Positions 7,677 to 49,542 of a DNA stretch of 64,000 nt are shown piece by piece. Source of the DNA: Cymodocea nodosa. Taxonomy: Eukaryota > Streptophyta > Magnoliopsida > Alismatales > Cymodoceaceae. The notes below the pieces were generated by a model, which was not told the origin of the DNA, did not search any database, and saw nothing but the letters and a program-made list of their open reading frames with translations. A program made the position numbers and the translations under genes. The stretch is taken from NCBI GenBank assembly GCA_036874045.1, contig JAZBRI010000011.1:10035501-10099500 (forward strand). Reading direction: 5' to 3'. The first letter of the stretch is position 1; each line of letters starts with the position of its first letter.

Positions 7677-7686
7677 CTTCCCCTAT
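7677..7686 (-). other. Polypurine tract of unit I
   Basis: The minus strand reads ATAGGGGAAG immediately before the LTR start TGTTTAG. This is the expected second-strand primer of an LTR retrotransposon. The same tract precedes the unit III LTR. Confidence 0.85.
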
Positions 7687-17325: not shown

Positions 17326-19574
17326 TGTTTTGAATGAAAAAGTGCATAATATTAACGTTTAAATGATGGTTAATTGCATAATATTTAGCTTATCATATGA
17401 GAATTAAGCCATTATGTTATAATTGCACTATTATATGCTTTAATTAAAGAATCTGCTTAATTTCGGTGAATTAATGTTAATTTAGTATATTTCTGAACTG
17501 TCGGTAAGTTGCAGGCTGTGAAATTCTTAAGCATCCAAATTTTCTGATATTTCGGACAGTTATGTTTAACATACTGAACATATTTCGGACAGCTATGTTT
17601 AACATACCGAACATGTATCGAATAGTTATGTTTTAAACTACCAAATAGTTATGCCTTAAAAGAATATTTTATTATTTCTTGAAGTACACGTGTTGAAACC
17701 ATAATGCATGACTTAAGTGAACTTTCGGTGAGTTATCTATAACTATCCGAAATTGTAGCTGGGCATCGGATAGTTATATGTGTAACTCTCCGAAATCTCC
17801 TTTTATTTATAAAATAGCTATGGACACGTGTCATGTTCTAGGAAAGTGACTTAAGTGAATTTTCGGTGAGTTATCTATAACTATCCGAAATGCATCTAGG
17901 CATTGGATAGTTAGACTTGTAACTCTCTGAAATGTTTCTTTTATTATTAAACTACTACTGACACATGTCGAGATCTAGTAGATTTACTTAAGTTATATAT
18001 CGGTGAGTTATCTATAACTATTCGAAATGTATCTAGGCATCGGATAGTTAAGTTTATAAGTATCCGAAATGCACTTGAGCATCGGATAGTTAAATTTATG
18101 CATGTGTTTTATAGTTAAATCAATGAGGTAAGTTCGTTGAGTTATCTATAACTCCATAGACTATTATTTTCTAATATGCCACTGTAGCGGTTGCAGAAAC
18201 AGGACAGTTGGAAGGAAAAACCCCGATCGCACGTATCGCGTAGGGAGAAGAAATCATCATCGTTGATATGAATGAAGGAAATCCAACCAACCATTCAAGT
18301 AGAAGTAGTTACCATTGAAGAAATATAAAAGAAAAGAAGAAAAAGAAGTAAAGTGTGTGTGATCGATGGGTATGACTAGTGTGTACAGAGGAGGAGCATC
18401 GAGCTTTTTGTAGACAGTGTTGGCAATTCTCTGAAGTACTACACCAACCACTATCACCACCACATTATCACCACCTTATCACCAACCATCGGAGGTCTAT
18501 GAGGATACTTTCCTGATGTCGGGTCGATTTCGAGCCAAACACAGTGCCTGACAACCACTGTGAGGAGTGATCGCGTCGTAGGAAGGAAAGCCATTTTCAC
18601 CAAGCACCGACTCATATTTTAGGAGATCGTAAAGCTTCTAGCCTTGGTTTCGGGTAGATGCCTGTATGCTGAAGAGGAGATCATCTTGCAATTCTGGACT
18701 CGTGATTCTATAGGGAGAGGAGATAGAATTGTAAGTGGTTTAATTTTCAGTGGTGTAATCGCGTCGCATGTAGTGACAGAAGTATTTATTGTCGACTGAG
18801 ATTACTTTGCATTTCACCTTTCGCCCATTTCCATGTTCATATTAAAACAAAAATACCAAAAACAACTTATCTGTGTTTGTATTTTGTATTTGAGTGTTGT
18901 GTTGTTTGTTTTGTATCGTGATTAATGTTATCTTTGTCAGTGTTGTGATTGTTTTATGTTTATTTTAGTTTTATAGTTTACTGAAATTGGTTCATTCAAA
19001 AGACTTAAAGATTTTAATGGTTACTATTTGAATTATCTAAATGTTAGTATGCTTAATGATAAATCCAGTGTTTACTAACATTAAAGAGCTTAATTGATGT
19101 TATTTACAATATGTGGAACCGCCCAATGGTTGGCCGAATTCCTTTGTAAATAGCAATATTAACTAGAAAATGCAAGCTCGTGGAGTTAATATAAGTCCAC
19201 GAGATTAGTCCGTTGAGTTAGCCATAACTCAATGAACTTTGTCCGTTGAGATAACTGTAACTCAACGAAGAGCTTATTGAATATATAAATTTGATTGTTA
19301 AAAATGAAACAGTTCTCAATTCTTAAGCAATTCCTTGTGGGATCGACCTGTATTTGCACACTAATACAATAGACACTGTGCACTTGTAGTTAAAATACAA
19401 ATTGGAATAAAAATTTAATTTGTGTGAAAGGTTGTTTGTTTTCTTCTAAAAAAAGAATAGACATAAAGATAAATTAACTAAGTAAAAACAGAAGTTAACA
19501 AATCCAAGTTTTTCTAGTGCGTTGCTAGAGATCCAATACAAGTTTTCTAGTGTTGTGCTGGCTAAACACAAACA
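17326..19574 (+). repeat. Unit II 5' LTR (Athila-like)
   Basis: Starts TGTTTTGAATG and ends AAACA, followed by seven bases and the primer site. Length is 2249 bases. U3 (17350-18170) contains a dense series of CGGATAGTTA and TAACTATCCGAAA words and CGTTGAGTTA words. U5 contains GATCGACCTGTATTTGCACA and CTGTGCACTTGTAGTT (19341-19391). It matches the minus-strand LTRs at 5653, 25281, 47620 and 55630. Confidence 0.9.
18324..18331 (+). promoter_or_regulatory. TATA box of unit II LTR
   Basis: TATAAAAG. The same box sits at the matching place in the other LTRs (26060-26067, 48633-48640 and 56860-56867, all minus), so it is the conserved promoter of the family. Confidence 0.7.
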
Positions 19575-25280: not shown

Positions 25281-26874
25281 CCAATTGAGCTCTTTAATGC
25301 TAGTGAATATTAGATTTGTCATTAAGCAACACTAACATTCAAATATTTCAAATAGTAACCATTAAAATCTTTAAGTATCTAGAACAATTGATTTCAGTAA
25401 ATTGTAATACTATTTTTTGAATCAAACAAACACAAAACATTCACAATACTAATAATAATAACTTTAATCACAATACAAAACAAATAATACAACACTTAAA
25501 TACTAAATATAAACTCAGATAAGTTGTTGTTTTTGGTATTTTTGTTTTGAGATATTCATGAAAATGGGCGAAAGGTGAAATGTAAAAATCTCTATCGATA
25601 GTAAATACTTCCGTCACTACATGCTACACGATTACACCACTGAAAACTTAATGACTTACAATTCTGCCTCCTCTCCTTATAGAATCGCGAGTCTAGAATT
25701 GCAAGATGATCTCCTCTTCAGCATATTGGCATCAACTCGAAACCAAGGTTAGAAGCTTTACGATCTCCTGAGATATGAGTCGGTGCTTGGTGAAAATGGC
25801 TTCCTTTCCCGTGACGCGATCACTCCTCACAGTGGTGAGGCACCGTGTTTGGCTCAAAATCAACCGGACATCAGGAAAGTATCGTCACAAACCTCCGATG
25901 GGTGGTGATTATGGTAATGTTGGTGATGTTGGTGAATTGTTGGTGATGGTGTGGATGATTCAGTGAACTTCCGACGCTGCCTATAGTTAGTGCGGTCCTC
26001 CACCTTTACATACACTGCCACACACTGCCAACCACACCTTCTTCATTTTTTCTCCTCTTCTTTTATATTTCTTCAATAGTAACTACTTCTACTTAAAATG
26101 ATTGGTTGGATTTCCTTCATTCAAATCAACGATGGTGATTTCTTCTCCCTTCCACGAGTGAATTCCTGCATGATACGTGCAATCCTGGCCTTCCTTCGAT
26201 TGTCCTTTTTCTGTAACCGCTACAATGGCATATTAGAAATTAAATGGTTCATGGAGTTACAGATAACTCAACGGACTTACTTCGTTGATTTAACTATAAA
26301 ACACGTGCAATAAAGAAATAAGCTGTTAACATAATGTGTTACCTTAGTATGTATTCATGTAACTCAACACGTACAGTTATGCTAACTTAACGAGTTAAAC
26401 ATGTGCATCTCACGTGATATACTAAAGCATTTAAATTCAACACGTGCATAATTCTAACTTAACAAGTTCAAAAATTTCACACTAACGAACCTAACTATCC
26501 GATGCCTAGATGCATTTTAGATAGTTAACAGATAACTTATTGAAAATCCACTTAAGTCATGCATTATAGTTTCAACACGTGTACTTCAGGAAATAATAAA
26601 ATATTCTTTAAAACATAACTGTCTGGTACATTAAACATAACTCTCTGAAATAACAAAAAATTCGGATACTTAAGAATTTCACAACCTACAATTTACCAAT
26701 AGTTCAAAAATATACTAAATTAACATTAATTCCCTGAAATTATGCAGATTCTTTCATTATAGCATATAATAGTGCAATTATAACATAATGGCTTAATTCT
26801 CATATGATAAGCTAAATATTATGCAATTAACCATCATTTAATTGTTAATATTATGCACTTTTTAGTTCTAAACA
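25281..26874 (-). repeat. Unit III 3' LTR, truncated
   Basis: Starts TGTTTAGAAC... after the polypurine tract at 26875 and runs to 25281, which corresponds to position 56091 of the unit V LTR. The last 460 bases of the LTR (U5) are missing. A TATAAAAG box lies at 26067-26060. It is closest by eye to the unit V LTR (for example the shared GTTGGTGATGTTGGTGAATT stretch on the plus strand). Confidence 0.85.
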
Positions 26875-26884
26875 CTTCCCCTAT
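26875..26884 (-). other. Polypurine tract of unit III
   Basis: ATAGGGGAAG on the minus strand directly before the LTR, identical to unit I. Confidence 0.85.
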
Positions 26885-28618
26885 ACTTAAATTTTGCTAG
26901 TCCCTTAGCAAACTAAGATCTAATTAGTTGGTCATTCTAAAGTGTTAGAATTAATTCTTTACCTAGTTCTTCTTCAAAATAATAAATTAGATTACTATAT
27001 AGATTTTCTGTATGTTTCAGTAATCTGTTTTAATTGTGTTTTCTCCTTTTCAACCTACAAATATACTTAGAATATATGTAAATTACATATAAAATATATC
27101 AACATCACATAGGTGTTAGTTATATTATCGTTTGTTCTTCTTTTTAGCATTTGTTATCCTGAATTTTCCAATATGATTTCCAGAATAAATTTCAAGTACA
27201 TACAAATCAAAACACAATCCAATTCAATATGATTAAGACAAGTAGAATAAAGAATTGTATCTCAAATAAACAACTTCAAAAGTCTATTCTAGATTCATAC
27301 TTCAGCAATTTTAGATAACAGTACATATACTCAATTCAAAAGATATCTGTATTTCACAAAACACTTGTTTCTTTTCAAAACAGTATATACATATTTGTAC
27401 TTTAAAAGTTAATTTGACAAGCTTGAATCATACAAGAGCTTTCTAGTGTACCCATGTATCGAGCTTTCAATCAACAATCCCAGATTTGATCAGGATCTTA
27501 GGTTGCCAGATTTAAAGAGTCCTTTTTTAGGTTAACAATCCTTATATACCTATCTGCTCAAGTACAAAAGGCTCGTGATTAAACAAGTCAATAAACTCTC
27601 AAAGTTTCTTTTTTTTTTATTTTATTTAAAACTAACACAATATATTTATGTATTTCATTAATACAGATGCAATAAAACACAAATCTCATATACTCCTACT
27701 TCTATTATTTACTGAAAATATGAATCCATGTCAATAAGCTCATACTTTTTCTATAGTTTAATAAGCTCTACACATAAATCATTCTACATGTTTAATCAAT
27801 CAAATTAAATGTATCATTGATCATATGTATTTTATTTAATCCAAAAATCAACGTTTTAGCTCTTTCAGGATTTCAGATAATTACTGAGTTTCAATTAAGC
27901 ATTTTGATTTCATTTTAAAATCGTGAAATTTTTAAACTCATAAAATTCAACAACATAAGATACTATATCTAGATTTTTATGAATAATAAAATTTGTAGCA
28001 TCTTATATAAGATTATAAATATAACATTCAAGCAGTCATAGTTCTTAAAAATTTTACAATTTCAAATATCAGATAGTTACAGCAAATTCATAAAAAAAAA
28101 TTTTCAATTTCCATAGAACTTTTGAAGTACCATTCTAATTCCTCTAATTAACAAAATTACATGGCTGTTACTTTAATTACCTCCCCCCCATACCTACATT
28201 TTGCATTGTCAATGTAAAAGATTTTACAATAAATATTGTAATTATAGCAAGCATGAATATTATTTCATTAACTTAGCATCTAACTCAATGAACTTAGTTG
28301 AAATGTAAATTCAAGATAAGTAATCAATTACATACATTGTCCTTTTGTATCTCCTTCAATATCTTCCGATTTTTGATTCTGAAAAACTTTTCATTCACAT
28401 AAAAGCAAAGTAACAACATAACAATTTAACTTGTTAAATCAGTGTCTTGTGTGGAACCCAGGCTCCTACGCCTTTGGTGGCTCACAGGCAAGCCAGTTGG
28501 TTTCCTAGAATAGATACCAACAAACTGGATTGATATTTTGTTGTTTTTTTTTTAGAACAAAACTAAAATTAAGAAAAATGTAGAATACACACAAAATTTA
28601 AAAGCACAGAATCATAGT
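26885..28618 (-). other. Unit III 3' non-coding region
   Basis: AT-rich, no gene seen. Positions 27200-28610 match unit IV 35020-36440 nearly base for base over long stretches. About 1.1 kb of it (26912-28070) is absent from unit I. Confidence 0.75.
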
Positions 28619-29115
28619 TTAAAAACATGATTGAAAAGTAGTAACAAATGGAATAAACGTGTTAGTCCATGCAAACTTTTTAGGCATAATTCTTCTTGCT
28701 ATTAATTCTGTGTTAATGCAATTTGCTTTCCTTTTTAGCTTGTAAACTTGCAGTATGTTATCAATACTAAATATAAGTGTATTACCATTAATGAAATGAA
28801 ATGCAAAAAGGGATCCTCTTATGTTCCAAGATAATGTAGCTATTTCTATTTCTACATCTATTTCAATATATTCTTCTTCCCACTTCCATTCATTTAGTTC
28901 TTTCATAATCCATATTTGAAATTTCTTCAATTCATCCCACCATCTTATCAGACATAAAGTAGCATCATCATATTCATTATACCACATTCCCAATTGAATT
29001 TGATCATATTCTAAAGTCGATGGTTTAGCTATATCACTCGGTATAGGTAATATTTCTATAAAACCATCATAACTGTCTATGCTTACTATGTATAAATCAG
29101 ATCTAACTGCAATTA
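28619..29115 (-). pseudogene. F-box/FBA-type gene, copy 2, C-terminal half only
   Basis: The frame is open from 29115 to the TAA at 28621-28619 and encodes about 165 residues: SDLYIVSIDSYDGFIEILPI, LCLIRWWDELKKFQIWIMK, EEYIEIDVEIEI, and a C-terminus ELIARRIMPKKFAWTNTF ending QSCF. This copy shows the true C-terminus that is broken in copies 1 and 3. The N-terminal half with the F-box is missing, because the PIF element begins at 29116. No stop occurs in what is left. Confidence 0.85.
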
Positions 29116-29284
29116 AGGGGGGGTTTGTGTATACTAAGATTTTGAAGAAAGGAAAGAAATGAAAGTAAAGAAACTATGTAAGTAGTTTGTGTAGATTTGG
29201 AAACTTGGGAAAGTTTTTTAACTTTCCCAAATATAAAAGGAAAAATTTTCCCTGATTTCGGAGACTCTCCCCTTTAAAATCAAG

Positions 29285-29470: not shown

Positions 29471-30338
29471 GGTAATAATTTCATGAAACTTTTGCATAGT
29501 TTATTTCTTGTAGCTAGAACAATACTAACAAATATTATTAGTATTTTATCTACCAAAGTTTAAATTGAGTAACTTTTTATTTCATCCATTCATCACCTCT
29601 AATAATTTCTGTTGTTTGCGGTGGAACTTATTTTATATCAGTCGTCTGAACTTATTTAGTAACATTTGCAAGTAGAAGCTGGAGTTCATGTATATATTTA
29701 TGCATGGGTTTGTTCTTGGAAGGCAGTCTCAAAAGTGTGTATTTTGTTAATAAAAGTTAAAAGTTCATATCATGTTTATATGGTTAGTAGAGATTAATGA
29801 GAAGAGGAAAATTGAAAAAACAAGAAGCAAGATCTTTTGCAAGAACTAAGGTTCTTGAAGATTTAGGATTTTGTTAATATGACTCAATAATTTCTGTTGT
29901 GATCAATTTGCATTAATGAGGTCCTACATTATTTGGATTTTGGTCTAGATAGGAGGTGCTATGTTGGCCTTGCATTAGCAACAAAGCATGCTTGGACCTA
30001 AGAAATCTTAGTGCAGGCTATGTGTTAATTCTTGAATATCTTTTGCTGCTGTTCTTACTTCATTTGCTTCCCATTTCATGATATCCAACTTATTTCTTTA
30101 GTTATATTTTGATTACAAATCCAACAAAAAAAAGTATGAAATTCTTATGTATGCCATTTCATGTGTTATGAATGACTAGTAACTTATTTAAGTTATTCAT
30201 TCTTATCCACTTTTAATGCATGTTGTCATTGAATGAATAATAACTTATATAATTTTTATGTTAATGATTGATGTTGTCATTGTCATCCATATTTCAATGA
30301 TGTATTTTTCATTTATATATATGTTTTGCAAATTAGAT

Positions 30339-31424
30339 ATGGCTACTATAGATAATATAGTACCAAGTAGACAAAGATCCTATACTAGTTGGAATGCAAA
30401 AGTAGATGCCACATTTTTGGGTATATTAGAAGATGTTTTAAATGAAGGGAATGCAAAGACACATGATGGAAAAGTTAAAGTTGAAACATGGAACTCGGTA
30501 ATAGAGAAGTACAATAATGACACAAATGTAGGTATCACAAAGAAAAATGTTAACAGTCGAATTAAAACATGGCGACAGATGTATCGTAACTACACAAAAA
30601 TTATGTCTCAAAGTGGTTGGGGATGGAATTACATACAAGGTCATACTGATATTTCAGATGAAGTTTGGAATGAATTTATTAAGGTAATATTTTTGAATGT
30701 GTTAATATAATTTGTACGTTCTGTATATACTAACATACTTTTAATCTTGCAGAAACACCTAAATTGTGCCCCCCTCAAAGGTAAACCATGTCCTATTTAT
30801 GATCAACTGCAATTGTTATTTGAAAGTAATATGGCTATAGGGAATGTTAGTAGAGACCTTGAAACAATTACTCAAAATGAAGGAGACATACCTATGAATG
30901 AACCAAATGAAATGACACCTCCACCAAATCATTTTCAATACTTCACACCACCAAGTGATAGTCAAATGGATACAGATGGTATCCAACTTCAATCTCCAAT
31001 GTCTTCATCAAGAAGGTTCAATGAGGTGAAAAAGGGAAAATGTCCAAGACCACATGTAGAGTCAGCACAACTAATGACATCTTCATTTAAAGAAGCTACA
31101 TCTGCTATTATGTCATTATGTGAAAAAGAAGAGGATAAAGTTAAAGCTCGACAAGAATATTATGATAATGTAACAAACATATAGAAAGAACAACTTCAGA
31201 TCCAAAAACAACAAGTTAAAGTGCAAGAGCAAATGCTGCATTTCAAAGTGAAACAATGAAGTCTTACAGCACAAGCTATAGAAGCATTATTGCAAATTGA
31301 AAGTCTTACTAATAGTGAGAAATTCAAAGCAATGACGTTATTGGAAAGAAAAGAACTAGCAGAGAAATTTCTTAGCATCCTAGTAGATATGAGGGTAGAA
31401 TGGATTAAGTATCACAACTTATGA
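30339..31424 (+). pseudogene. PIF/Harbinger ORF1 (Myb/SANT-like DNA-binding protein)
   Basis: Exon 1 (30339-30683) begins MATIDNIVPSRQRSYTSW and holds a Myb/SANT-like trihelix domain with spaced tryptophans (SYTSWNAKVDATFLGILEDV, VETWNSVIEKYN, RIKTWRQMYRNY, DEVWNEFIK). A GT-AG intron (30684-30752) leads to exon 2 from 30753 (KHLNCAPLKGKPCPIYDQL). The frame stays open to a TAG at 31182-31184, then continues in the same frame through a Gln-rich helix, a TGA near 31257, and EKFKAMTLLERKELAEKF to a final TGA at 31422-31424. Two in-frame stops make it a probable pseudogene, though the first 258 codons are intact. In active elements this protein helps transposase bind the ends. Confidence 0.85.
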
Positions 31425-31792
31425 ATGTACTTTTCTATTGTTGAGTAATGTTGATGGATGTGATGAACTTTATTATTATGGTGAATAATGTATAATGTTG
31501 AATTTTAGACAATGATGATGACTATTGATTTTCATATGTGAATGCTTTATTGCTTGATATTTTATATAAATCTTGTTATGTGAAATAAATGTTTTTATTA
31601 TTGTTGAAGATTCTTATAGATTTTTAGGAAAATATGTACTAATCTCATTACTTCTTGTAGGTAATAATTATCATGAATGGTATTGATGGTTTGGAATTGT
31701 TAAAGAATATGCTTGAGGAAGAAGAGGAAGAAGTAGAAAGACGATGAACGTTACTTCTTTCACTATGGAACTTCCTTGCAGGTGTTGCATGT

Positions 31793-33057
31793 ATGTCAAG
31801 TACATTGACTAGTACTACACATCGCATTTATAGTAGAGAAGGGCATGACTACATTAGAAGATTATTAGATCCATCATTACCACATCAAGCATATAATTGT
31901 CGAAAAATATATAGAATGAGTCAACATGTATTTCTTAACTTCTGTAATTTGTTACGAAGAGAAGGTGGTATGGGAAATACAAGCAATGTTAGTGTCGAAG
32001 AGAAGTTTGCAATCTTTCTTGTCACTGTTGGTCAAAACCAACGATATGGAGTAACAAAGGAGCGCTTCTCTCAATCTACATGGACTGTTAGTATGTACTT
32101 CAATGAAGTACTTAATGCAATTTTGAACTTGCATAAACAACTTCTTGCAATGCCTCCAACATCAACTCCAAGTAGAATACTGAATTATTCAAATGTGTAT
32201 CCCTATTTTGAGGTAAATATATATTTTCATATGAAATTGATTTGTATATTATTTTTTTCTCATTTTCTTATTCATATGTTAACAGAATTGCATTGGTGCT
32301 ATTGATGGAACACATATTAAGGCAACTATTTATGGACGACAAACAGCAAGATTTAGAAATAGAAAAGGAGAGTTAAGTCAAAATGTTATGGCTGCATGTA
32401 ATTTTGATATAGAATTTACATATATTCTTAGTGGTTTGGAAGGATTAGCTTCTGATGCAAGAATCCTTCAAGATGCCATCACAAGACATCATCCATTCAA
32501 GGTTCCACCAGGTATAAAATGACATTATTGAATATATATTTTTTATTTACACTAATTTTTAATTATATACAGGAAAGTTTTACTTGGTTGATGTTGGTTA
32601 TCCTAATCGACCTGAATTTATTTGTCCATATCGAGGAGTGAGATATCATCTATCTGAATATGAAAATAATAGAGTTCCAGAAAATGCAGTCGAAAACTTC
32701 AATTACAGACATTTACAATTAAGATCAGTGATTAAGCGATCATTTGGAACTGTTAAACATCATTTTGCAATCTTACGAGGACATATGCCGTATCCTTATG
32801 ATACACAAATGAAGATTGTGATGGCTTGCTTCCTATTACATAATTTTATACGTAAAGTTGATAGAGTAGATTTATTAGAAGATCTACAAGATGAGTTAGC
32901 TGAATTTGATCTAGAAAATGAAGAAATTGGAATTGTTGAAGATGAGCTTTCACAGATAGATAGTACATTAGAAATGACACAAGAACGAAGAAAACAAATA
33001 GCAGATGAAATGCGTGACAACACGAAGACTACCATGTGGGATGAATGTGACTTTTAA
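31793..33057 (+). pseudogene. PIF/Harbinger transposase (DDE_4 family), catalytic Glu replaced
   Basis: Three exons, 31793-32212, 32286-32511 and 32573-33057, joined by GT-AG introns, give 376 residues. Motifs in order: YNCRKIYRMSQHVFLNFC (helix-turn-helix region), YPYFENCIGAIDGTHI (first Asp), GLEGLASDARIL (second Asp), KFYLVDVGYPN, and RSVIKRSFGTVK, where the family has IER: the catalytic Glu is Lys (AAG for GAG). An in-frame ATG at 31673 with an acidic stretch precedes a TGA at 31745, so the normal start may be 31673 and the N-terminus is also broken. The enzyme is therefore probably inactive. Role in intact elements: cut and paste at TTA/TAA targets. Confidence 0.88.
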
Positions 33058-35005: not shown

Positions 35006-36446
35006 TCTTAATCCAATTCAATATGATTAAGACAAGTAGAATAAAGAATTGTATCTCCATTAAACAACTTCAAAAGTCAATTCCAGATTCATATTACAGC
35101 AATTCTAGATAACAGAAAATATACTCGATTCATAAGATATCTGTATTTCATAAAACACTTGTATCTTTTTAGAACAGTATATGTATATATATATAAATTT
35201 TTGTACTTTAAAAGTTAATTTGACAAGCTTGAATCATACAAGAGTTTTCTAATGTACCCATGTAACGAGCTTTCAGTCAACAATCCTAGATCTGATCAGG
35301 ATCTTAGGTTGCCAGATTTCAAGAGTCCTTTTTCAGGTCAACAATCCTTACATACCTATCTACTCAAGTACAAAAGGTTCGTGATCAAACAAGTCAATAA
35401 ACTCTCAAATTTTCCTTTTTTTTTTTCAATCAAAATACAAACACAAACAAAACATTAATCACATACTATATATGTATGTATTTCATTAATACGGATGTAG
35501 TAAAACTCAAATCTCATATAGTCCTGCTTCTATCATTTACTGAAAATATGAATCCATAACAATAAGCTCATACTTTTTCTGTAGTTTAATAAGATCTACA
35601 CATAAATCATTCTACATGTTCAATCAGTCAAATTAATTGTATCTTTAATCATATGTGTTTCATTTAATCTAGAATTCACATCTCAGCTCTTTCAAGACTT
35701 CAGATAATTTACTGATTTTTCATTAAGCATTCTGATTTCATTTTAAAATCGTGAAACTGTTAAACTCATGAAATTCAGAAAAAAACATAAGATACTATAT
35801 CTAGATTTGCATAAATAGTAAACTCTATAGCATCTTATATAACCTTCTACATATAACATTCAAGTAGTTACAGTTTATAAAAATTTTACAGTCTCAATTA
35901 TTGGATAGTTACAGCAAGTTCATAAAAATTTTCAATTTTCACAAAACTTTGCAGTACCATTTTAATTCCTTTAATTAACAAACTTACATGACTGTTACTT
36001 TAATTACCCCCCCCCCCCCCATACCTACATTTTGCATTGTCCTCAATGTAAAAGATTTGACAATAAGTTCAGTAATTGTAGCAGACATGATTACAGTTTC
36101 TTTGATTTAAAATTCAAGATAAGTAATTAGTTACATACCTTGTTTCGTTTGTATCTTCTTCTACATATTCTGATTTTTGATTCTGAAAAACTTTTCATTC
36201 ACAGATAAACGCAGAATATAAAGCAAAATAACATTTAACAGATATTAATAAATCAGTGTCTTGTGTGGAACCTTAGCTCCTATGCCTCTGGTGGCTCACA
36301 AGCAAGCTAGTTGGTTTCCTAGAATAGATACCAACAAACTAGATTGATATTTTTTTTTTTTTTTTTTTATAAAATAAAATGAAAACTATATTTTTTCTAA
36401 AAATAAACATAGAATACACACAACATTAAACACACAAAATCACAGC
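35006..36446 (-). other. Unit IV 3' non-coding region
   Basis: AT-rich, no gene seen. It matches unit III 27200-28618 and stops at the PIF right end before reaching a polypurine tract. Contains a C homopolymer run (36007-36020). Confidence 0.7.
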
Positions 36447-37582
36447 TTAAGAACATGATTGAAAAGTAGGAACAAATGGAATAAATGTATTAGTCTAAGC
36501 AAAATTTTTAGGCATAGTTCTTCTTGCTATTAATTCTATTTTAATGCAGTTCTTGTTCCTTCTTAATTTGTAAATGTGTAATATATTATAAATTCCAAAT
36601 ACAAGTGTATTACCATTAATGATATGAAATGCAAAAAGGGATCCTTTTTGGTTCCAAGGTAATGTAGCAGTTTCTATTTCTACATCTATTTCAATATATT
36701 CCTCTTCCCACTTCCATTCATTAATGTCTTTCATAATCCATATTGAAATTTCATCAGTTCATCCCACCATCTTATCAAACATAAAGTAGGATCATCTTCT
36801 TCATTATACCACATTCCTATTTGAATTTTATTAAATTCTGCAGATGGTGGTTTAGCTATTTCTCTCGGTATAGGTAAAATTTCTATATTTTTATCATAAC
36901 TGTCTATGCTTACTATGTATAAATCAGATCCAAATGCTATTGATATATTTGTGACAAGATATACATATCCATCAAGTATGACATGCATGTTGTTAATTAA
37001 TGATTTCTGTCCTAGATATATCATAATATTTTCAGTCCAAGATCTATTCAAAAAATTATACACACTTAAGCGTAAACCTTCACCCCAATTTCCTGTAGGT
37101 CTCCAATAATATAATTTTTCAGGAATTGTAGAATTTTTATCAGAAAATAATAAAGTCAATCCACAATTTATAGTTGGTACTTCATATTTATTAGGTCTTC
37201 CTATATACCATTCTTCTCTTGTTATAGGATTTCTTATCAAAATATCAGGTAATAAACTTGCATACCTTGGTCTCGTCCTGTATATGATTAATCCTTCATC
37301 TATCCCCATAATATGATCTATTCCTTCTAATGTATTGGGTGGAATTCCAGTAGTTTCTTCCATAGCCAGATATTCATGGTTAATTGAACTACGATTAAAT
37401 GACCTCCATATGAATCCATCTCTAATCTTAGTTATTTTTGCAGCTTGTAGTCTTTGAAAATATTTTTCTTCAATATAGTCTTTAATTTCCTTTGATACAC
37501 AACACAGCCTGCATAGATCTTTAGCTGATAAATTACTTAGTACTTCCCTTAGTGCATCCAACGGTAATTGCATTAATTCCAT
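36447..37582 (-). pseudogene. F-box/FBA-type gene carried by the retroelement, copy 3 (nearly intact)
   Basis: From ATG 37582 one frame is open for 283 residues. It has the F-box at 5-45 (LPLDALREVLSNL, AKDLCRLCCVSKEIK), then RPRYASLLPDILIRNPITRE, EWYIGRPNKYEV, LYYWRPTGNWGEGLRLSVYN, VILDGYVYLVTN and EILPIPREIAKPPS, the layout of F-box-associated (FBA) substrate domains. A one-base deletion near 36748 shifts the frame; the other frame continues EWKWEEEYIEIDVEI to a TAG at about 36494, where copy 2 has Trp, and homology runs on to 36447. Two simple lesions separate it from an intact gene of about 375 residues. Same strand and same place as copies 1 and 2: directly after gag. Confidence 0.88.
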
Positions 37583-37777: not shown

Positions 37778-38961
37778 TCATTCAGGTACCCTCCTAGAAG
37801 AGGTATCAATTTCATTAATAGTTCTATTGATAGGATTAGGTATTGCTTGTATTGGCAATCCTCTAGTAGGTCTAACTTCCATTGGTTCCTTCTATCTAAG
37901 TGGTATATTTCTATTCTGATTTTGAATTGCAGCATTTCCAAATACAAAATCCAAACGATTGTTTAATTGTTGGATTATCTTTTCTAATTTCTCTATTCTA
38001 GATCATTGTTCCAGTAATGCTTCATAACTTATATTCTTCTCATTTATATTTTCTCCTCCCTAGAAATTGTTGTTTCTCCAAGATAAATTCGGGTGATTTC
38101 TCCAACTAGGATTATAAGAATTTCCCAAGTTATCTCTCTAGTTTCTAGCATAAATAATATCTAAATCATTTATGTTTGCATTCTTTTCTGTTAGCTTTTG
38201 ATTTAATGATAACTCTTCTATTTTCTTTGTTAATTTAATTAATTTCACCTCAAGCATAGTACTCGAATCTATTTCATGCATTCCTCTTGACAATATTTTT
38301 TTATCTACAATAGCTTCAGCTGAGTTTTCCCACTGTGCTATTCTTTTTGCAAAGTTTTCTAAATATGCCCATGCTTCTTCACTACATAACTTTAAAAATC
38401 CATTTTGACAAGTAGATTCTAATAAAGATTTTGTTGAAACATCTATGCCTTCATAAATTATACTTATTAATTGTGCCTTCCTCATTGCATGATGCAAACA
38501 TTGAGTTAGTAAATCTTTAAATTTTTCAAAATATTTCTAGAATGATTCACCCTTTTTTGGCTACACATTAATATTTCTTTTTTCTTTTTAATCGTTTGAT
38601 GTGTTGGATAATATTTTTCCAGAAAAATAGAGCAAAATTCAGTCCATGTAGAAATTGAATCAGGCGATAGAGTATATAACCATCTCTTAGCTGTCTTTTA
38701 AAGAAAAAGAGATATATCTAAGTTTAATAGCATCTATACTCATGTTTGGCATTTTCATCATTTGACAAACTTCATTAAATTCTCTAAGGAAATAATAGAC
38801 ATCCTCTCTTTCTAATCCATGAAAATGTGGCAATTAACTAATATAATTAGATTTCAGTTCAAACTTATCTCCCTCAAAGTTTGGCAATCAAATACATGAA
38901 GGTTCATCAACTAATTCAGGATACAAATTTCTCCTAATGGTTTTTCTACTAGAACAGCCAT
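37778..38961 (-). pseudogene. gag: Retrotransposon gag (capsid-type domain), unit IV
   Basis: Starts at ATG 38961 (MAVLVEKPLG). After a frameshift near 38930 it follows unit I: DEPSCI, FELK, FHGLEREDVYYFLREF, a KRWLYTLS block, then an open stretch (38497-38138) with EEAWAYLENFAKRIAQWE and KLTKKIEELSLNQKL, then the NSYNPNWRNHPNL motif near 38090 and a C-terminal tail ending at TGA 37780-37778. No CCHC knuckle is present between IEELSLNQK and NPNWRNHPN, where Athila Gag normally has it. Several stops and at least two frameshifts. It lies downstream of ORF3 and directly upstream of the F-box gene on the same strand. Confidence 0.82.
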
Positions 38962-40027
38962 CTCTACATTCTCTTTTAAAGAAAGGCTAGCTACACCCCA
39001 AAGAATTTCGTTAAAGTTCAGTTCAGAAATTTTTTTAGTACTCCTCTACGATGAAAATTCCTAGGTAGGTGTTCTTACTAATCGTTTAGTGCTTAAAGAA
39101 CGAGTCCATGTGCTCATAAATAGATAACATAAGATTAATTACATACTAGTCTGAAGCTTTCCATTCAATAAATTCAATAGACATTTGTTGTCGGATGAAG
39201 TTGAATTAGTTGCTTCTCCTTCTAGTTCCTCCAACGCATTCTCCTTTCTTTTAAAAGTGCTGGTAACTCGTAAATAACATTCTGATTTATATATATAATG
39301 TACATCCATAAAGTGAATAAATCTCATTGCAAGAACGTGTCTTGCAACGTGCATCGTGGTTCCTGTTTTTATAGGTACGTGTACCACTACTAATTTCAAA
39401 TTTTGGTAACTACTAAACCGACGAAGTTTCGTTCGTGGTTAAAAGAATAACCGTTTTGCTTAATCCATGAACTAACCTCGTTGAGTTACAGATAACTCAA
39501 CAGAGTGACCTTATATTATATTACTAACCTCGTGGAGTTACGTTTAACTCAATGAACTTACTTCGTTGAGTTAACACTTAGCAACCTCTAAGTTTTTCTC
39601 GTAAGTACCTCTCTACTTTTTCTTCTTTTTCATTCTGCTAACTGAAATAAAGTTAAATCTATGTCATTAATGCATCATTTTAATCAAAAATTCATTTAAA
39701 TCTGAACATTATATAAAGATTTAACTTGCAGGTCATTTTATGTTATACAGAATTTACATTTTACCTTACAACATGTAGAAATTTTTAAGCATCTATCCTG
39801 TCATTCAGCAAATTGTAAATCTGTTAAACATTCATCCATAAAGTTCCACAAATTATATAATATTCAATAAATTCCATTCATTTCACATTCAAAACAAGTA
39901 TGAAAAGTATCTCTGAAAAATTTATATTCATTCATATAAATCAATTTACATTACAATCAAATCAGACATTTTTCATACAATTATATACAAGTAGACGAAC
40001 AATACAATTTAGTCTCTATTCCTAAGT
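38962..40027 (-). other. Unit IV ORF3-gag spacer
   Basis: Matches the unit I spacers. It contains two GTTGAGTTA/TAACTCAAC inverted pairs (39479-39570) and a short frame at 39399-39139 that is only weakly kept in unit I. An in-frame stretch LNFNEILWGVASLSLKEN just before 38961 suggests gag may start further upstream. Confidence 0.65.
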
Positions 40028-42247
40028 TCATTTACTTCCTTCTAGAGTTTTTTCTAATTGAAGCTCTAATTGATTAATTCTTTCTACTGCTCCTGTAATT
40101 CCTCTAGAAGGTACAACTATCTCTACAACTACAAAATTTCTGTTTTCTTTCACTAAAATGGTTCTTAATTTGATTCTTTTTGCTACCCATTTCGTGAAAT
40201 CAATACAATCCACCATCAGTAGTGGAATCAAATCTCCATAAAACAATTTCTTCTTTACTATTTTCAGCTTGGAGATAAAAACTGCAGACCAATTTATTTG
40301 AATTCTATTTACAACTGCAAATGTGACCCATTTGACAAATTGACTTAATTCTATGTCATGGCCTTGTCGTTGATAGACATTCTTAATCAAAATGTTGGCT
40401 ACCTTGTGTGCTTTACCATTTAAATGCTTTTTGTTTAATAAAGGCACACTAGGATTGATAAGTAAACAATCTTTGATTTCCTGTTCAGTCCATTCAATGG
40501 CAGTTGTGTCTTCCAAAATTTTTAGTCCTTCATTCTTTAATTCAAAAATGTTGTGGAGAAGCTCTGGTGTTATCTGTACATCAGTTTCCTCCACGTTTGA
40601 AATTAATCCTCCTTCACCTTCTCTTAAATTTACATAAAAATAGGGCACTAAATTCTCATAAACTACATGCCCTATTTCTTGAGAAATAAACTTCAGTAGA
40701 CCTTGGAATTCAAATAATTCTTTGATTTCTTGCATTCCATCCCAATTTACTAGTCTACTGTAAATAATATCATAACCCCTAATTTCTTGATATTTGATAT
40801 AAGCTTCCTAACTCCAAAAATGTACCTCATTCAGAGCTGTTGTTTCAGTCGGGTAAGGAATGTGACTTTGTTGTTCTAGAGAGGTTTGTTCTTGATTTTC
40901 CTCTTCTATAGGCTGCATCTGAACATTCTCTATAGATTCCTGAATTTCTGTTTCTGTTTCTTTTGTCTGTGGTGGTGAGCCGACAGAACTCTCCACTATG
41001 TCTTGAATTCTTTCCATAAATTGCTAAAGAGTTTCTTGCTCTTCAATGGAATCTGTAAAGTTATTTTTGTCCAAATGGCTTCTTTCAGCCTCTTCATTTT
41101 CTGCTCTTTCTTCTTCCTCCTGACTACCAATCTGCTCTGTTACTGTTCTTTCTGATTCTGTAATAGATTGGGATAGAGTCACAGGCAATTCAGTTTCAGC
41201 CCTAACTTCTGTTCTTTCTTCTTGTACAGGCTATAGATTAATTTCAGCCTATTTTTCTTCTTGTCTTTACTTTTGCTGCTGTAGCTCCTGCTCCTCCTTA
41301 GAATCAGATAGCAGGTTTATAAATATTGGCTCCACAGGCCCTGTTAAAATTGGTACCTTAGATTTAATCTCTTTTTGATAGTCAAGCACTTTCTCTTTTT
41401 CTTTCCTTTTTCTGATTAATTGTGCTTGTTCTTCCTCTTCTTCTTCTGAGATTAAATCTATAAAAGTAGGCTCTGCAAGCCTTCGAGCCACAAGTATTGG
41501 CTCTTCCTGTTTAATTCTCTTCATAATTGTTGGTCTCGAAGGACCAGCCTCAGCCTCTCCTGTAGCACTTGATTTAGTTGCTACCTGATGCTGTTCAACT
41601 TTTATTTTGTACTAGGCCCTCAACTTTTCTTTGACCCTTTTTTTCATAATGGCATCATATAAAATATGTGCCTTAGCTGTAGCTATTTCTTCATTATCAC
41701 CTTGGTCTCTTGCTGTTTTGACCAAGCTAGTAAATTCTTTCTCTTCTTCTTCAGTTCTCAGCCAAGCAAATTCTACTCGTGGCAATGGCTCTGTTGGCTG
41801 AACTAGAGGTCCTGACTGCTGTTCCTCAGGAACAGGTCTTTCAGTAGTTGGTTCCTCCCATTCTTCAGTTGCCTCTTCTTCATTTTCTTTCCTTTCTTGC
41901 TCCTAGATTACCCTTCTAGCTCGTCTACAGATTTGTCTTTTGAATTAGAGCTAGGACTTACGTTGGATTAATTCTAGGGTAACTTCGTTGTTTGGCCTTA
42001 TTTTTCTTTCTTTATTAACTGTAATTTCTGTTGCCACTCTGATTCGTGTATCCATTATATGAGGTATTTGTATATCCAAATCAACCAAAACTTTCCTTAA
42101 GTTAAAGAGTTTTGATTCTACCTTTTGTAGCTCTTTCTCTCTTCTTGTATTCCGAATCTTTTGCTACGTGTGCCATTCTTCTGATTCCTTCAGAAACTAT
42201 GTTGTGCCAACTACCTCTTCCCAAAATTTAGGTGTCATCTTCCTCAT
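40028..42247 (-). pseudogene. ORF3: long post-pol gene, unit IV
   Basis: One continuous frame of 740 codons from ATG 42247 to TGA 40028, broken only by in-frame stops (for example in GTT*FLK, EWHT*QK, LRA*YK). The N-terminal third is basic with KERKIRPNNEVTLELI. The middle is a long Glu/Gln-rich low-complexity segment. The C-terminal 235 residues (open from 40735) are globular: FYVNLREGEGG, PSVPLLNKKHLNGKAHKVAN, FVKWVTFAVVNRIQINW, LIPLLMVDCIDF. This C-terminal block resembles the putative plant transposon protein domain often found next to plant gypsy elements (Transposase_32-like); I infer this from pattern only. I see no transmembrane segment or signal peptide, so an envelope role is not supported. 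Confidence 0.65.
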
Positions 42248-42837: not shown

Positions 42838-45800
42838 CTAAGTAAAGCTCGAGTAGTCTTCTACTCTAACTTCTTCTATAATTCCAAAGGAGCTTTTTGG
42901 TATTTTCAGAATAGGTCTAAGTCTTTGTCCATTTACTTTAAATATATTCTGATTTTTAGGATTTTCAATTTCAATAGCTCCATAAGGATAAATATTTCGA
43001 ACTATCTAAGGTCCTGCCCATCTAGATCTTAATTTTCCTAGATGATTAAGGAGTCTAGTCATATAAAGATATACTTCTTGTCCTATTTCAAAGCTTTTTG
43101 GAATAATTTTTCTATCATGCTAGAATTTCATTTTCTCTTTTTCTCTTACAGTCTTCGAATAAGCATCATTTCTAAATTCTTCTAATTCAATTAATTGCAT
43201 TTTTCTATTTTCAACAACTTGATTTAAATTAGTGTTCAGAGTTTTTAATGCCCAATAAGCTTTATGTTTTATTTCAGCTAGTAAATGACAACTTTTTCCA
43301 TATACTAGCCTAAAAGGTGACATACCTAAGCATGTTTTATAAGCAGTTCTATAAGCCCAAAGTGCATCTATCAATCTATTAGCCCAATCTGTTCTAGTAG
43401 GATTTACTACTTTTTCTAAGATTAACTTAATTTGTTTGTTTGCACTTTCTACTTGTCCACTTGTTTGCAGATGATATGATGTTGCAATTTTATGGTTTAC
43501 TCCATATTTCTTCATTAAGGCTTCAAAACTTCTATTACAAAAATGAGTTCCTTTATCACTAATAATAGCTTTAGGTATTCCAAATCTGGCAAATATATTT
43601 GTTCTTATAAATTGTATTACCACTTTGTTATCATTAGTTTTTGTAGGAATAACTTCTATCCATTTAGATACATAATCCACCCCCAACAATATGTAATTAA
43701 ATTGATTAGACATAGGAAATGGACCCATAAAATCTATTCCCCACACATCAAATATTTCAACCTCAACAATAGGATTAAGAGGCATCATATTCCTCTTTGA
43801 TATTCTTCCTATTTGTTGACATCTTAAACAACTTAAGCAATATTTATGAGCATCTTCGAATAATGTTGGCCAATAAAACCCATATTATAGAATTTTTGCA
43901 GTAGTTTTCCTTGAACCAAAATGCCCTCCACAAGCTTGGTCATGACCAAAAGACAATATGCTCGGATATTCAGTTTCTAGAACACACCTTCTTAAAATAC
44001 GATCAGGACATTTCTTAAATAAGTATGGGTCTTCCCAATAGTAATATTTTACTCTTCAGAAAAACAATTTCTTACCCTATCTATTTCAATCCTTAGGTGT
44101 TAAACCAGTAACTAAAAAATTAACTACGTCTGCATACCAAGGTATTGTGTTTATGGTCATTAATTGTTCATTAGGAAAATTATCCTTAATTTTAATATTT
44201 GATTTTTCTATTTGTAATCTTGATAAATGATTTGCTACTACATTCTCACAACCTTTTTTATCTTTAATTTCTAGATCAAATTCTTGTAATAATAATATCC
44301 ACCAGATCAATCTCGGTTAGTCTCTTTTTTTGCTATTAGGTGTTTTAAAGATGAATGATCCGTGTATACTATCATTTTAACTCCAATCAAATATGATCTA
44401 AACTTTTCTAAGGCAAACACAATAGCTAATAGTTCTTTTTCAGTAGTTGTATAATTAACTTGAGCATCATTTAAGGTTTTGCTTGCATAATGAATCACTC
44501 TAAGAGATTTTTCTATCTTCTGTCCCAACACTTCTTCGACAGCAAAATCAGATGCATTGCACATTAATTCAAATGGATGACTCCAATCAGGTGCTTGAAT
44601 TATAGGAGTTGAAATTAAGTTAGTTTTAAGCTTGAAAAATGCTTCTTTGCAATTTTTATCAAAGTTAAATGGAACATCTTTTAATAGATTAGTTAAAGGT
44701 CTAGCTATCTTGCTAAAGTCTTTAATAAATCTTCTATAAAAACCAGCTTGTCCTAGAAATGATCTAATATGTTTTACTGATTTAGGTTCTGGTAGATTAG
44801 AAATTACTTCTATTTTAGCTTTATCTACTTCCAACCCTTTCTTAGAAACAATATGCCCTAAGACTATTCCTTATTTAACCATGAAGTGACATTTTTTCCA
44901 ATTTAATACTAGATTTTTTTTCACACAACGTTTTAATATTAGGTCTAAATTTTTTAAATAGACTTCATATGAGTTGCCATATACAGTAAAATCATCCATA
45001 AATATTTCTAAGAAATCTTCAGTCATTCTAGTAAATATGCCCTGCATACACCTTTGAAAGGTAGCTGGTGCATTGCATAATCTGAATGGCATTCTCTTAA
45101 AAGCATAAGTTCCATTAGGACAAGTGAAAGTTGTTTTCTCTTGATCCTCTAATGGTACTGAAATTTGATTATACCCTAAATACCCGTTTAGGAAACAAAA
45201 ATATTTTTGCCCTGCTAATCTTTCCAGCATTTGATCTATAAAAGGTAAGGGAAAATGATCTTTCCTAGTCATAGGATTTAGCTTTCTATAGTCTATACAT
45301 ACTCTCCAGCTTGATTGAATTCTAGTAGGTATCAAGTCTTGACTTTCATTCCTAATAACTGTTAATCCTGATTTCTTGGGAACTACATGGATTGGACTAA
45401 CCCACGAGCTATCAGAAATCGGATAAATTATGTCATTATCTAACCATTTCACTATTTCCTTCCTGACTACTTGTTTAACGTTTGGATTTAATCTCCTCTC
45501 AGGAATTCTAACAGGTTTAGCATTCTCTTCTAAATATATGTGGTGACAGCATAAAGTTGAACTTAACCCTTTTATATCAGTCATAGTCCATCCTATTGCT
45601 TCTTTATAACTTTTTACTACATCTTTCAATTTAGCTATTTGATCCTCTTTTAAATCTGAAGCAATAATGATTGGACAGGTTCATTTCTCTTCCAGAAATA
45701 TATAGGTTAATTCAGGAGGTAAATGTTTTAATTCTAAATGTTGCCCATCAGAAGCAAGAGCTCCTAATTGAACATCATCATTTTCTAAATTAATTTCTTC

Positions 45801-47483
45801 CAGATCTCCTTCTATATTTATGCTTTCACCTTCCTCTAAAGTTTCAGAATTGATTTGCCTTTTTAATTCTTCTTGAATCACATCATCTAACATATCTCCT
45901 TCATCCTCTAAAAAGTCTATGGTATGTAAGGACATTTCTAACTCCTCAAACCTTTCTAGTTTGAAAATATTTAATTGAGTATCCTCATTACCATATGATA
46001 ACTTCATTACTCCAGTTTTACAATTTCTAACAGCCCTTGATGTTGCTAAAAATGGTCTTCCCAAAATTAAAGATGTATCACTATTTCTATGCTTAATTTG
46101 TTGGGAATCCAAAATTACAATATCAATAGGATATATAAAGTTTTTGATTTTAATTAAGACATCCTCTATTTTTCCTCTAGGGTATCTTATACTTCTATCA
46201 GCTAATTGAATAACCGTACTAGTAGGAGTTAAGCCTTCTAATCCTAAGGATGCAAATATATCACTTAGCATAATATTTATACCTGCACCTAAGTCTATTA
46301 AGGTTCTTTCTAGAATGGTATTTCCTATGGTGCATGATATAACAAGGATTTTAGGATCAGATAACGTTTTAGGAATTTGTGGCAGAAATAGGGAACTACT
46401 TTGCTCAGCTAAAAAGACCTTTCTAAGAACTTTTCGCTCTCTTTTCCTAGTACACCAATCCTTCAGAAATTTAACACAAGGTGGCATTTTCCGTAATAGA
46501 TCTAACAAAGGAATGTTAACTTGTACTTTTTCAAAAATTTCTTTGATTTTTTTTTGTTTTTCAGGTATTGTTTGTTGTAATCTTTCAGGATAGGGTGCTA
46601 AAGATTGTTATTTAAGAGATTCTTTTTCTTTCGGTTGATTTGTTTGATCATTTTTAGCTTCATTAGCAGATTCAGATTGTTCTTTAGTGATTTTTAGATT
46701 TTCAGCTATTACATTTTCATTATCATTTTGATTTTTACTCTTATCCACCTTCATATTATTTTCATTTTGAGTTCTTTGTAGTATATCAGTTCCAGATCTT
46801 AATGTTACACATACATCTTCCAGATTTTCATTACTTTCATGATGTTTTTGTATATCATTTTCGTGATTGTGATCTTCAATTGTTTTTAGTTTTAAAGTGC
46901 ATTCTTTAAATTCTCTTGCATTAGTATTTTCTATTTGCTGTATATTTTGCAAATTATGTAGGTTTATAATATTATAATTTTCATTGTCCTATTACATAAC
47001 TTGTATTTTCATTATATATTCGTCCAATACTTTTAGTTTTCTTTCCAAATCATCTAATCTCATTGCATTCAATTTTTGATCAATTTTCCTTATGGTTTTT
47101 TCAGTTTCGTAAATTATATCCTTTTTAGGTTCTAAATATGCTTCCTTATAATTTAATTGGTTGACTTCTTGTTGCTGACACATAAAGTATTCTAGTTTGT
47201 CTAGGTTTTGCTCTATGCTATGCTCCAGTCTGTCATACCTATCCCAAACTTCACTGTCTCTCAACATATTACACATTCTATACTGACCATCAGTTGGGTA
47301 AACTATAGGATTCTCATACTCGGCTCTATTATACTAAGGATAATTCATTTGTTGTTCATGGGATCTAACCATCTGCAAACATCTCAGTTTCAAACAGTCA
47401 GAAATGTCGTGTCTTTCAGAATTGCAGAATTCACATATTCTAATTATAGGTTTCAGAAATCTTTGAGCATAAGCATATGCCAT
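42838..47483 (-). pseudogene. pol: Athila-like polyprotein (zinc knuckle, PR, RT, RNase H, integrase), unit IV
   Basis: Same layout as unit II. The start (47483) encodes MAYAYAQRFLKP and the CCHC knuckle. Here the codon after TDG is CAG, where units II, V and VI have TAG. Protease with LIDLGAG and ILGRPFLATS (46508-45681 open). RT (45629-44871 open) with WRVCIDYRKLN and intact IFMDDF. RNase H (44834-44307) with ELMCNASDFAVEEVLGQ, where the usual CDAS is CNAS, so a catalytic Asp is probably lost. Integrase (43788-43120 open) with [19 protein letters not shown] and [11 protein letters not shown], so all three catalytic acids are present. Stops and frameshifts between these blocks make it a pseudogene. 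Confidence 0.92.
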
Positions 47484-47590
47484 ATTCTCAATTACAAAAG
47501 AAAACACACAACTCTCTAGCTATTAAAATGAAATAACTCTAACAGTTGCTTATATTAATTCAATTCAATTCAATTCAATTCTAGTAAATT

Positions 47591-47619: not shown

Positions 47620-49542
47620 TGTTTGGATCTCCAGTAACGCACTAGAAAAACTATGATTTGTTAACTTTTGTTTTTACTTAGTTAATTTATCTTAATGCTT
47701 ATTCTTTTTCTTTTAGAAGTAAACAAACAACCTTTAATACAATTTAGATATTAATTCCATTTTGTACTTTAACTGCAAGTGCACAGTGTCTATTGTATCA
47801 GTGTGCAAGTATAGGTCGATCCCACAGGGAATTGCTTAAGAGTTTAGAACTGTCCGTTTGTTAACAATCAAATTTATATATTCAATAAGCTCTCCGTTGA
47901 ATTACAGTTAACTCAATGGACAAAGTTCGTTGAGTTATAGCTAACTCAACGAACTAACCTCGTGGACTTAAGTTAACTCCACGAGCTTGTCTTTTCTTTT
48001 TAAATACTGCTATTTACAGAGGAATTCGGCCAACCATTGGGCGATTCCACAGATTGTAAATAACATCAATTAAGCTCTTTAATGTTAGTAAACACTGGAT
48101 TTATCATTAAGCAATACTAACATTCAAATAATTCAAACAGTAACCATTAAAATCTTTAAGTCTTTTGATCGAACTAATTTCAGTAAACTGTAAAACTAAA
48201 ACTAACATAAAACAATCATAACACTGATAAAGATAACATTAATCATGATACAACACAAACAATACAACACTCAAATACAACATACAAACATAGATAAATT
48301 GTTTTTGGTATTTTTGTTTTAATATGAACATGAAAATGGGCGAAAGGTGAAATGTAAAGTAATCTAAATCGACAGTAAATACTTCCGTGATGCGATCACT
48401 CCTCACAGTGGTTGTTAGGCATTGTGTTTTGCTCGGAATTGACCCGACATCAAGAAAGTATCCTCACAGACCTCCGATGGTTAGTGATTGTGGTGGATAT
48501 GGTGGTGGTAATGATGGTTGGTGTGGTACTTTGGAGAATTACCGATACTATTTGTAGAAAGCTCGATGCCTCCTCCTCTGTACACATTGGCTGCCCATCG
48601 ATCACACACTTTTTACTTCTTTTTCTTCTTTTCTTTTATATTTCTTCAGTAGTAACTGCTTCTACTTGAATGGTTGGTTGGATTTCCTTCATTCATATCA
48701 ACGGCGATGCTTTCTTCTCCCTATGCGATACGTGCAATCGTAGTTTTTCTTCCAACTGTCTTGTTTCTGCAACCGCTACAATGGTATATTAGAAAATAAA
48801 TAGTCCGTGGAGTTACAGATAACTTAATGAACTTTCTTCATTGATTTAACTATAAAACACGTGTAGAAATTTAACTATCCGATGCTCAGGTGCATTTCGG
48901 ATACTTACAAACTTAACTATTCGATGCTCAGATGCATTTCAGATACTTATAAACTTAACTATCTGATGCTCAGATGCATTTCGGATAGTTACAAATAACT
49001 CACTGATATATAACTTAAGTAAATGTACCAGATCTCGACACGTGTCAGTAGTAGTTTAATAATAAAATACACATTTTGGAGAGTTACACATATAACTGTC
49101 TGATGCCTTACTGCAATTTCGGATAGTTATAGATAACTCACCGAAAATCCACTTAAGTCATGCATTATTGTTTCAACACGTGTACTTCAAGAAATAATAA
49201 AATATTCTTTCAAAACATAACTGTTCGGCAGTTTAAACATAACTATCCGATACATGTTCGGTCTATTAAACGTAACTGTTCGAAATATGTTTGGTATGTT
49301 AAACATAACTGTCTGAAATATCTGAAAATTTGGATACTTAAGAATTTCACAGCCTGCAACTTACCGACAGTTCAGAAATGTACTAAATTAACATTAATTC
49401 CCCCAATTTAAGTAGATTCTTTAATTAAAGCATGTAATAGTAAAATTATAACATAATGGCTTAATTCTCATATGATATGCTAAATACTATGCAATTAACC
49501 ATCATTTAACCGTTAATAATATGCACTTTTTCATTCTAAATA
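47620..49542 (-). repeat. Unit IV 5' LTR
   Basis: Ends CAAACA at 47620, seven bases before the primer site; starts at 49542 with TATTTAGAATG (TG changed to TA). Length is 1923 bases. U3 contains many CGGATAGTTA/TAACTATCCGA words (48860-49300); U5 has GATCGACCT and TGCACTTGCAGTT. TATAAAAG at 48640-48633. Confidence 0.9.

Follow-up and report, generated by a model that had tools for sequence, protein, structure and literature searches.

An F-box gene as a regular component of an abundant Athila-like LTR retrotransposon in Cymodocea nodosa

Within the 64-kb stretch of Cymodocea nodosa DNA analyzed here (the window), an F-box/FBA-type gene occurs three times beside retrotransposon sequence, which raises the question of whether these are isolated captures or a constituent of the element itself. 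The three copies are not isolated captures: the F-box gene is, almost certainly, the regular 3′-terminal gene of an abundant Athila-like LTR retrotransposon of ~17 kb. Re-reading of the frames placed all three copies on the minus strand, at the positions given by an earlier sequence-only reading. Copy 3 (36447–37582; F-box domain PF00646, E = 2.9e-10) is open over 36734–37582, encoding 283 aa from the ATG, after which the frame is broken and the tail is open in a different frame (36495–36758). Copy 1 (8334–9473; F-box Pfam E-value 1.3e-10) carries four internal stops, three of them within the first 280 codons. Copy 2 (28619–29173, open) retains only the 3′ half of the gene, and a Pfam search found no F-box domain in it. 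With the frame broken or partial in all three copies, the window contains no intact full F-box frame.

As that reading had described, a gag frame lies upstream on the same strand for copies 1 (10072–10896) and 3 (38138–38958), and copies 1 and 2 are followed by 3′ non-coding DNA, an identical 27-nt stretch containing the polypurine tract (PPT; 7677–7703 and 26875–26901) and, directly after it, an LTR. The 3′ LTR of copy 1 (5690–7676) is followed by internal sequence of the same element type; the 3′ LTR of copy 2 (25282–26874) is truncated. Copy 3 retains a 3′ non-coding region homologous to that of copy 2 (35010–36446), although neither its PPT nor its LTR was found within the window. The capsid-type gag just upstream of copy 3 matches Retrotrans_gag (PF03732) at 38509–38697 (E = 1.5e-6), the only match above the curated cut-off among the window gag frames tested; the gag of copy 1 is assigned by homology to it and consists of pieces without a Pfam match. 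The leader of the gag/F-box module, a conserved module start, occupies 38959–39456. Between copies 1 and 3, DNA identity is 91% in gag, 86% in both the F-box gene and the spacer, and 84% in the 3′ non-coding DNA. All of these features lie on the minus strand. A separate gag-like ORF on the plus strand (16803–17333), with a sub-threshold zinc knuckle, belongs to another element (copia-like by eye) and is cut at ~17326 by the start of an Athila-like LTR.

The gag–F-box–LTR unit of the sequence-only reading is a real arrangement, but it is merely the 3′ part of a ~17-kb element that carries pol. The element ending in copy 3, also on the minus strand, has a 5′ LTR at 47690–49542 that carries a deletion. 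Directly after the LTR leader lies a 5′ ORF (46992–47519) with one stop and a CX2CX4HX4C zinc-knuckle-like motif recognized by eye; neither a Pfam match nor a capsid domain was found in it. Protease-like, RT, RNase H and integrase frames follow at 43120–46607 (RVT_1, E = 3.5e-25; RT_RNaseH, 2.4e-29; rve, 1.4e-14), the protease-like frame being sub-threshold (Asp_protease_2, 19.1 bits against a cut-off of 24.3). After integrase come an acidic ORF (41267–41902), split into two stretches by a stop in this element, and a Transposase_32-like ORF, which occupies the env-like position behind pol (40028–40807; PF20167, E = 1.7e-5, 25.2 bits, below the curated 45). The gene order is LTR, zinc-knuckle-like ORF, PR-RT-RH-IN, acidic ORF, Transposase_32-like ORF, capsid gag, F-box, 3′ non-coding DNA, PPT and LTR.

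This whole order is readable in the window and in two further loci, L015 and L021, for which 10 kb were read further upstream (L032 and L031, respectively); the L031/L021 copy is without the protease and the first part of RT. The L032/L015 element spans ~17 kb, and its LTRs are 94.1% identical across the 800 bp that align, the 3′ LTR being only partly matched. The spacer between the Transposase_32-like ORF and gag is homologous in all six copies compared, with insertions in two of them. Paired LTRs, a PPT at the 3′ LTR and a PBS-like site after the 5′ LTR are all present, as in an LTR retrotransposon. In the window, positions 41613–62488 (minus strand) form tandem units of ~8.04 kb, each with an LTR followed by the 5′ ORF, pol and the acidic ORF; the start of the LTR falls at almost the same position within the acidic ORF in two units, suggesting a nested insertion and then tandem duplication.

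The capsid gag does not stand at the 5′ end of the element. It lies 3′ of the Transposase_32-like ORF in the window, in L015 and in L021; gag queries had no match in the 10-kb upstream stretches of three copies, and a Pfam search of the 5′ ORFs returned no Retrotrans_gag match. For an LTR element, this gene order is permuted, with a constrained capsid gag 3′ of pol and Transposase_32 and a 5′ ORF that keeps the zinc-knuckle-like motif only. With Athila/Calypso-type Ty3/gypsy elements, which carry an env-like ORF, the element has in common the LTRs, the PR-RT-RH-IN order, an extra ORF after pol (here the Transposase_32-like ORF), and 3′ non-coding DNA with a PPT. Two features set it apart from them: the capsid gag is placed behind both pol and the Transposase_32-like ORF, and the 3′-most position is taken by an F-box gene of host type. 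We use the label Athila-like, not Athila, because the capsid gag is not in the 5′ position and the lineage was set by features rather than by RT phylogeny. The label rests partly on general features of that lineage: the Transposase_32 family marks Athila, and the PBS-like sequence after the LTR resembles the Athila/Tat type.

How widely is this arrangement distributed? A search of the genome (374.6 Mb, 28 contigs) with the copy-3 protein gave 137 scored matches among 6,284 first-look candidates, a first-look number that is not a copy count. All 137 cover nearly the full query length at 87–100% identity (E ≤ 2e-167), and they are spread over 20 contigs; 49 are free of stops, and in 22 of those 49 the open frame reaches 370 aa or more. 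With up to three mismatches allowed, the genome contains 1,717 occurrences of a 30-nt F-box-start tag and 3,575 of a 49-nt PPT/LTR junction; both reversed controls gave 0. We rejected a chance resemblance of ORFs on the basis of the tag count against its control, and a single segmental duplication because the scored copies lie on so many contigs.

To place the gene in its context, 20 F-box loci (odd ranks 1–39 of the best 150 F-box domain matches) were fetched with 5 kb on each side. Nineteen belong to the element family, and because of the element a census of F-box genes in this genome may come out too high; the remaining locus, L013, carries a host-type F-box/β-propeller gene with a different C-terminus and no element match. 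Because the matches in L023 and L024 are identical in kind and position, the 19 represent 18 independent loci; the small contig bearing L024 (C28) is probably an unmerged assembly duplicate of the region bearing L023 (C3, near 20.89 Mb). Of the 19 family loci, 15 carry a same-strand gag no more than 1.5 kb upstream, 15 have the 3′ non-coding DNA, 10 have the PPT/LTR junction, and 17 have same-strand LTR sequence downstream. An upstream LTR is found in eight and an upstream Transposase_32 in six, in one of which (L017) it is just 30–39% alike. Seven of eight top F-box loci in a separate look, four of them shared with the 20, were family members. Pairing of 343 F-box places with 100 of the 3,575 junctions yielded four pairs at +2.8–3.3 kb, three other same-strand pairs within 15 kb and one opposite pair. 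In L018, L019 and L028, adjacent F-box elements seem to be joined in tandem through a common LTR, as LTR–LTR recombination would give. The genome-wide search that the sequence-only reading had called for thus bears out its claim of a stable cargo in a multi-copy element family: the fetched loci are mostly element copies with gag and LTR flanks rather than single-locus host genes, and similar copies occur far outside the window.

The linkage was also tested from the other side. Comparison of the best 147 Transposase_32 matches with the F-box lists gave 10 same-strand pairs at +3.2–3.6 kb; the other pairs within 20 kb comprised three in same-strand orientation, one of them at +1.7 kb, and three on opposite strands. 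At the expected distance, 520 bases were read for 10 of the best 14 Transposase_32 loci, the four already paired being left out, an exclusion that biases against the claim of F-box linkage. F-box sequence stood at the expected place in seven of these 10 loci, which had been chosen by Transposase_32 score; it started at +3.25–3.28 kb in six and ~0.3 kb nearer in L058. Two of the remaining loci hold 3′ non-coding DNA of the element there instead, the product of internal deletion, and one holds other DNA.

Has the F-box frame been kept by selection? Copies 1 and 3 differ with a dN of 0.105 and a dS of 0.333 (ratio 0.32), against 0.86 and 0.78 in the shifted frames. Over 20 copies, the pairwise dN/dS is 0.344 (pairs not independent), with 0.604 and 0.891 in the shifted frames; for the C-terminal piece of the F-box gene, the true frame gives 0.449 versus 0.868 and 0.536. 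The ratios are 0.28–0.29 for gag and 0.25 for Transposase_32 (six copies). With this method the neutral level lies below 1, because 3′ non-coding DNA read as codons gives 0.58–0.76. The comparison among element-borne copies proposed in the sequence-only reading thus reveals constraint between subfamilies, but none is visible among the youngest copies. Of the 22 young copies with the longest open frames, 20 make up the young set (open frames of 362–379 aa). In the tree, from which 7 of 44 sequences were dropped for short coverage, a long branch leads to a single shallow cluster of young copies. Their dN/dS is 0.60 (0.45–0.82); since this is no lower than in the shifted frames (0.52 and 0.69), recent change is neutral, with a lower value, 0.24, in the first 60 codons only. 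As young copies change neutrally, we rejected the many open frames as proof of selection.

Fixed differences between subfamilies, from which L011 and L016 were excluded as too divergent, have an N/S of 28/20, against 180/56 for singletons and 100/47 for shared young-cluster changes (Fisher p = 0.04; p = 0.12 at a stricter threshold). No fixed stop occurs in the true frame, versus 6 and 8 in the shifted frames. Judged from these sequence comparisons, the F-box protein was quite probably under selection in the past, and the pattern is consistent with moderate past constraint, followed by neutral decay after insertion.

F-box/FBA-type proteins link a target to SKP1/CUL1. In the element protein, the F-box domain scores 29.4–41.1 bits against the curated PF00646 cut-off of 20.5. 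The C-terminus resembles the FBA type, matching TIGR01640 at 34.2 and 30.0 bits (E = 1.6e-8 and 3.1e-7), below the cut-off of 37.9, and FBA_1 at 18.0 bits at best (cut-off 21.1), a match absent in one of four sequences. AlphaFold models of window-only sequences had a mean pLDDT of 38, with 58–72 over the first 50 residues, and no match by sequence was found in the PDB. No host donor gene was found in a large public protein set (0 of 380 candidates) or in viral contigs, with collections and search modes that are poor for plant genes; an FBA_1 family search of the genome, in a mode uninformative for plant genes, gave no match, and family matches swamp the genome search. The apparent lack of introns had been taken to fit capture through RNA. 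A single exon says little about the capture route, because every retrotransposon copy passes through RNA, and we rejected it as proof of RNA capture. An acceptor-like YAG precedes the ATG by 9–11 nt in 17 of the 22 older loci and in 18 of the 20 young loci, roughly the level expected if only decay acted; it may permit a spliced F-box message, without proving one.

Based on these data, the best overall explanation, to which we assign a probability of roughly 0.7, is that the F-box gene is a regular 3′ gene of the element, derived from a host, kept by selection and encoding an SCF adaptor. The source would have been a host F-box/FBA gene, taken up by an ancestral element and then maintained by selection in the active lineage. 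The position after pol and the splice-acceptor-like sequence before the ATG would suggest a spliced subgenomic RNA as the message. Through its F-box the protein would bind host SKP1, and the FBA-like C-terminus would bring a target to SCF. Its role would probably be that of an SCF adaptor directed either at a host restriction factor or at an element protein; the likeliest target would be a host factor through which the element is restricted or silenced, followed by a protein of the element. This suggests that the element uses the host protein-disposal machinery for its own ends. A counter-defence role is a tentative reading, drawn by analogy because viral F-box-like proteins that act on silencing exist. 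Similarly tentative is the view that the F-box receptor is a permanent accessory gene through which this endogenous-retrovirus-like plant element family, like some plant viruses, would use host SCF to remove a silencing or restriction factor, and that the gene would have helped its amplification to thousands of copies.

Several other explanations have to be weighed against this model. F-box families are large in plants, and the loci might represent a large cluster of host F-box genes into which unrelated retrotransposons have inserted. We rejected this as extremely improbable, since it is contradicted by the fetched loci: gag, PPT and LTR flanks are fixed on the same strand in most of them, non-coding DNA is homologous on both sides of the F-box, the copies are scattered over 20 contigs, and L013, the one host-like gene fetched, has another C-terminus and no element match. 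It is also very unlikely that the carrier is only a short LTR–gag–F-box–LTR element that came to be linked to pol and Transposase_32 incidentally, through nested or tandem insertion. Short elements flanked on either side by LTR sequence do exist (L018, L025, L027 and L023), nested and tandem LTRs are common in these loci, and in five short elements an LTR directly precedes the gag leader. However, the LTR/leader junctions differ in four of these five (among L018, L025, L027 and L028, with L023 close to L025), the Transposase_32–gag spacer is homologous in 6/6 copies, the spacing is fixed genome-wide, and the F-box is found in 7/10 Transposase_32 loci. Some shorter copies have lost pol and kept gag and F-box, and the short gag–F-box elements look like deletion derivatives, mostly from separate losses of pol.

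The gene could also be a passenger of the large element, captured once and copied along without benefit to it. Neutral divergence of the young copies fits this reading, and gene transduction by plant LTR elements is documented (PMC7264820 and PMC13317346, accessible parts). Against it stand the lower dN/dS between subfamilies, the absence of fixed stops, and the presence of the F-box in old and young subfamilies alike and in Transposase_32/pol-bearing loci; moreover, published transductions comprise one or a few copies (PMC7264820, accessible part), against more than 1,700 tags here, and we consider a passenger unlikely. With respect to the target, the main rival to a host factor is a protein of the element itself: the F-box protein would make SCF degrade capsid gag, integrase or the Transposase_32-like protein, timing or limiting particle formation. 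Gag and F-box are both constrained and lie close together in 15/19 loci, but adjacency is no proof of interaction and a host target is equally compatible with the data; we consider such self-regulation unlikely.

Most accounts of genes inside LTR retrotransposons treat them as one-off captures, and the extra ORFs that are conserved mostly lack a recognizable function. The F-box gene resembles the additional ORFs (aORFs) of plant LTR elements in being a conserved, many-copy sense ORF between pol and the 3′ LTR (PMC7264820, accessible part). Antisense aORFs are described there as mostly of unknown origin, without clear database similarity; the element described here, unlike those, encodes a recognizable F-box protein in sense orientation. 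As for conservation, the F-box is present in 7/10 Transposase_32 loci and has a dN/dS of 0.344 versus 0.60–0.89, the constraint not being visible among the youngest copies. Like the transduced genes of maize Bs1, tomato Rider and the rice and sorghum surveys, it is a host-type sequence on the same strand of an LTR element (PMC13317346, accessible part); unlike those, which are fragments or occur in one or a few copies, it has a ~378-aa open frame and more than 1,700 F-box-start tags. Among the papers listed in a literature search, judged by title and start of abstract and with subscription papers mostly outside its coverage, none concerned an F-box gene resident in an LTR element. The accessible part of that 2026 plant gene-capture review (PMC13317346) makes no mention of F-box, and that of a Retand paper (PMC11963269) none of Transposase_32, PF20167 or ubiquitin.

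Among parasites, the polerovirus protein P0 is an F-box-like silencing suppressor that engages plant SKP1, with ARGONAUTE1 as a target in some poleroviruses and SKP1 contact mainly stabilizing P0 in one case (PMC6593998, accessible part). The element likewise carries an F-box-type protein in a parasite genome; the likeness is an analogy only, the P0 motif being F-box-like. F-box and transposon sequences were also joined in Caenorhabditis, where host F-box genes took up a Tc1/mariner HTH domain (PMC12062965, 2025, accessible part), but in the opposite direction, as here the element holds the F-box. In the present case, the extra ORF encodes a recognizable type of ubiquitin-ligase adaptor, is present in such numbers and is common to old and young subfamilies, so that the old question of what accessory genes of plant retrotransposons do becomes directly testable.

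VANDAL elements are DNA transposons. Their VANC protein offers a model of an element-borne anti-silencing gene whose motifs are repeated in element non-coding DNA (PMC5735166, accessible part); VANC is unrelated to the element F-box protein, and the likeness concerns the model only. In many loci, a near-palindromic motif of ~30 nt is scattered through non-coding DNA, in the LTR, in the Transposase_32–gag spacer and to either side of the F-box, its 10-nt half-site words occurring 83 times in 23 loci (a duplicate locus included) versus ~1 expected by shuffling. It may be likened to the VANC-bound motifs (PMC5735166, accessible part). The window also holds a PIF/Harbinger-like transposon remnant on the plus strand (30258–33057), with a Myb/SANT-like ORF (E = 5.5e-12) and a DDE_Tnp_4 nuclease (E = 1.5e-12).
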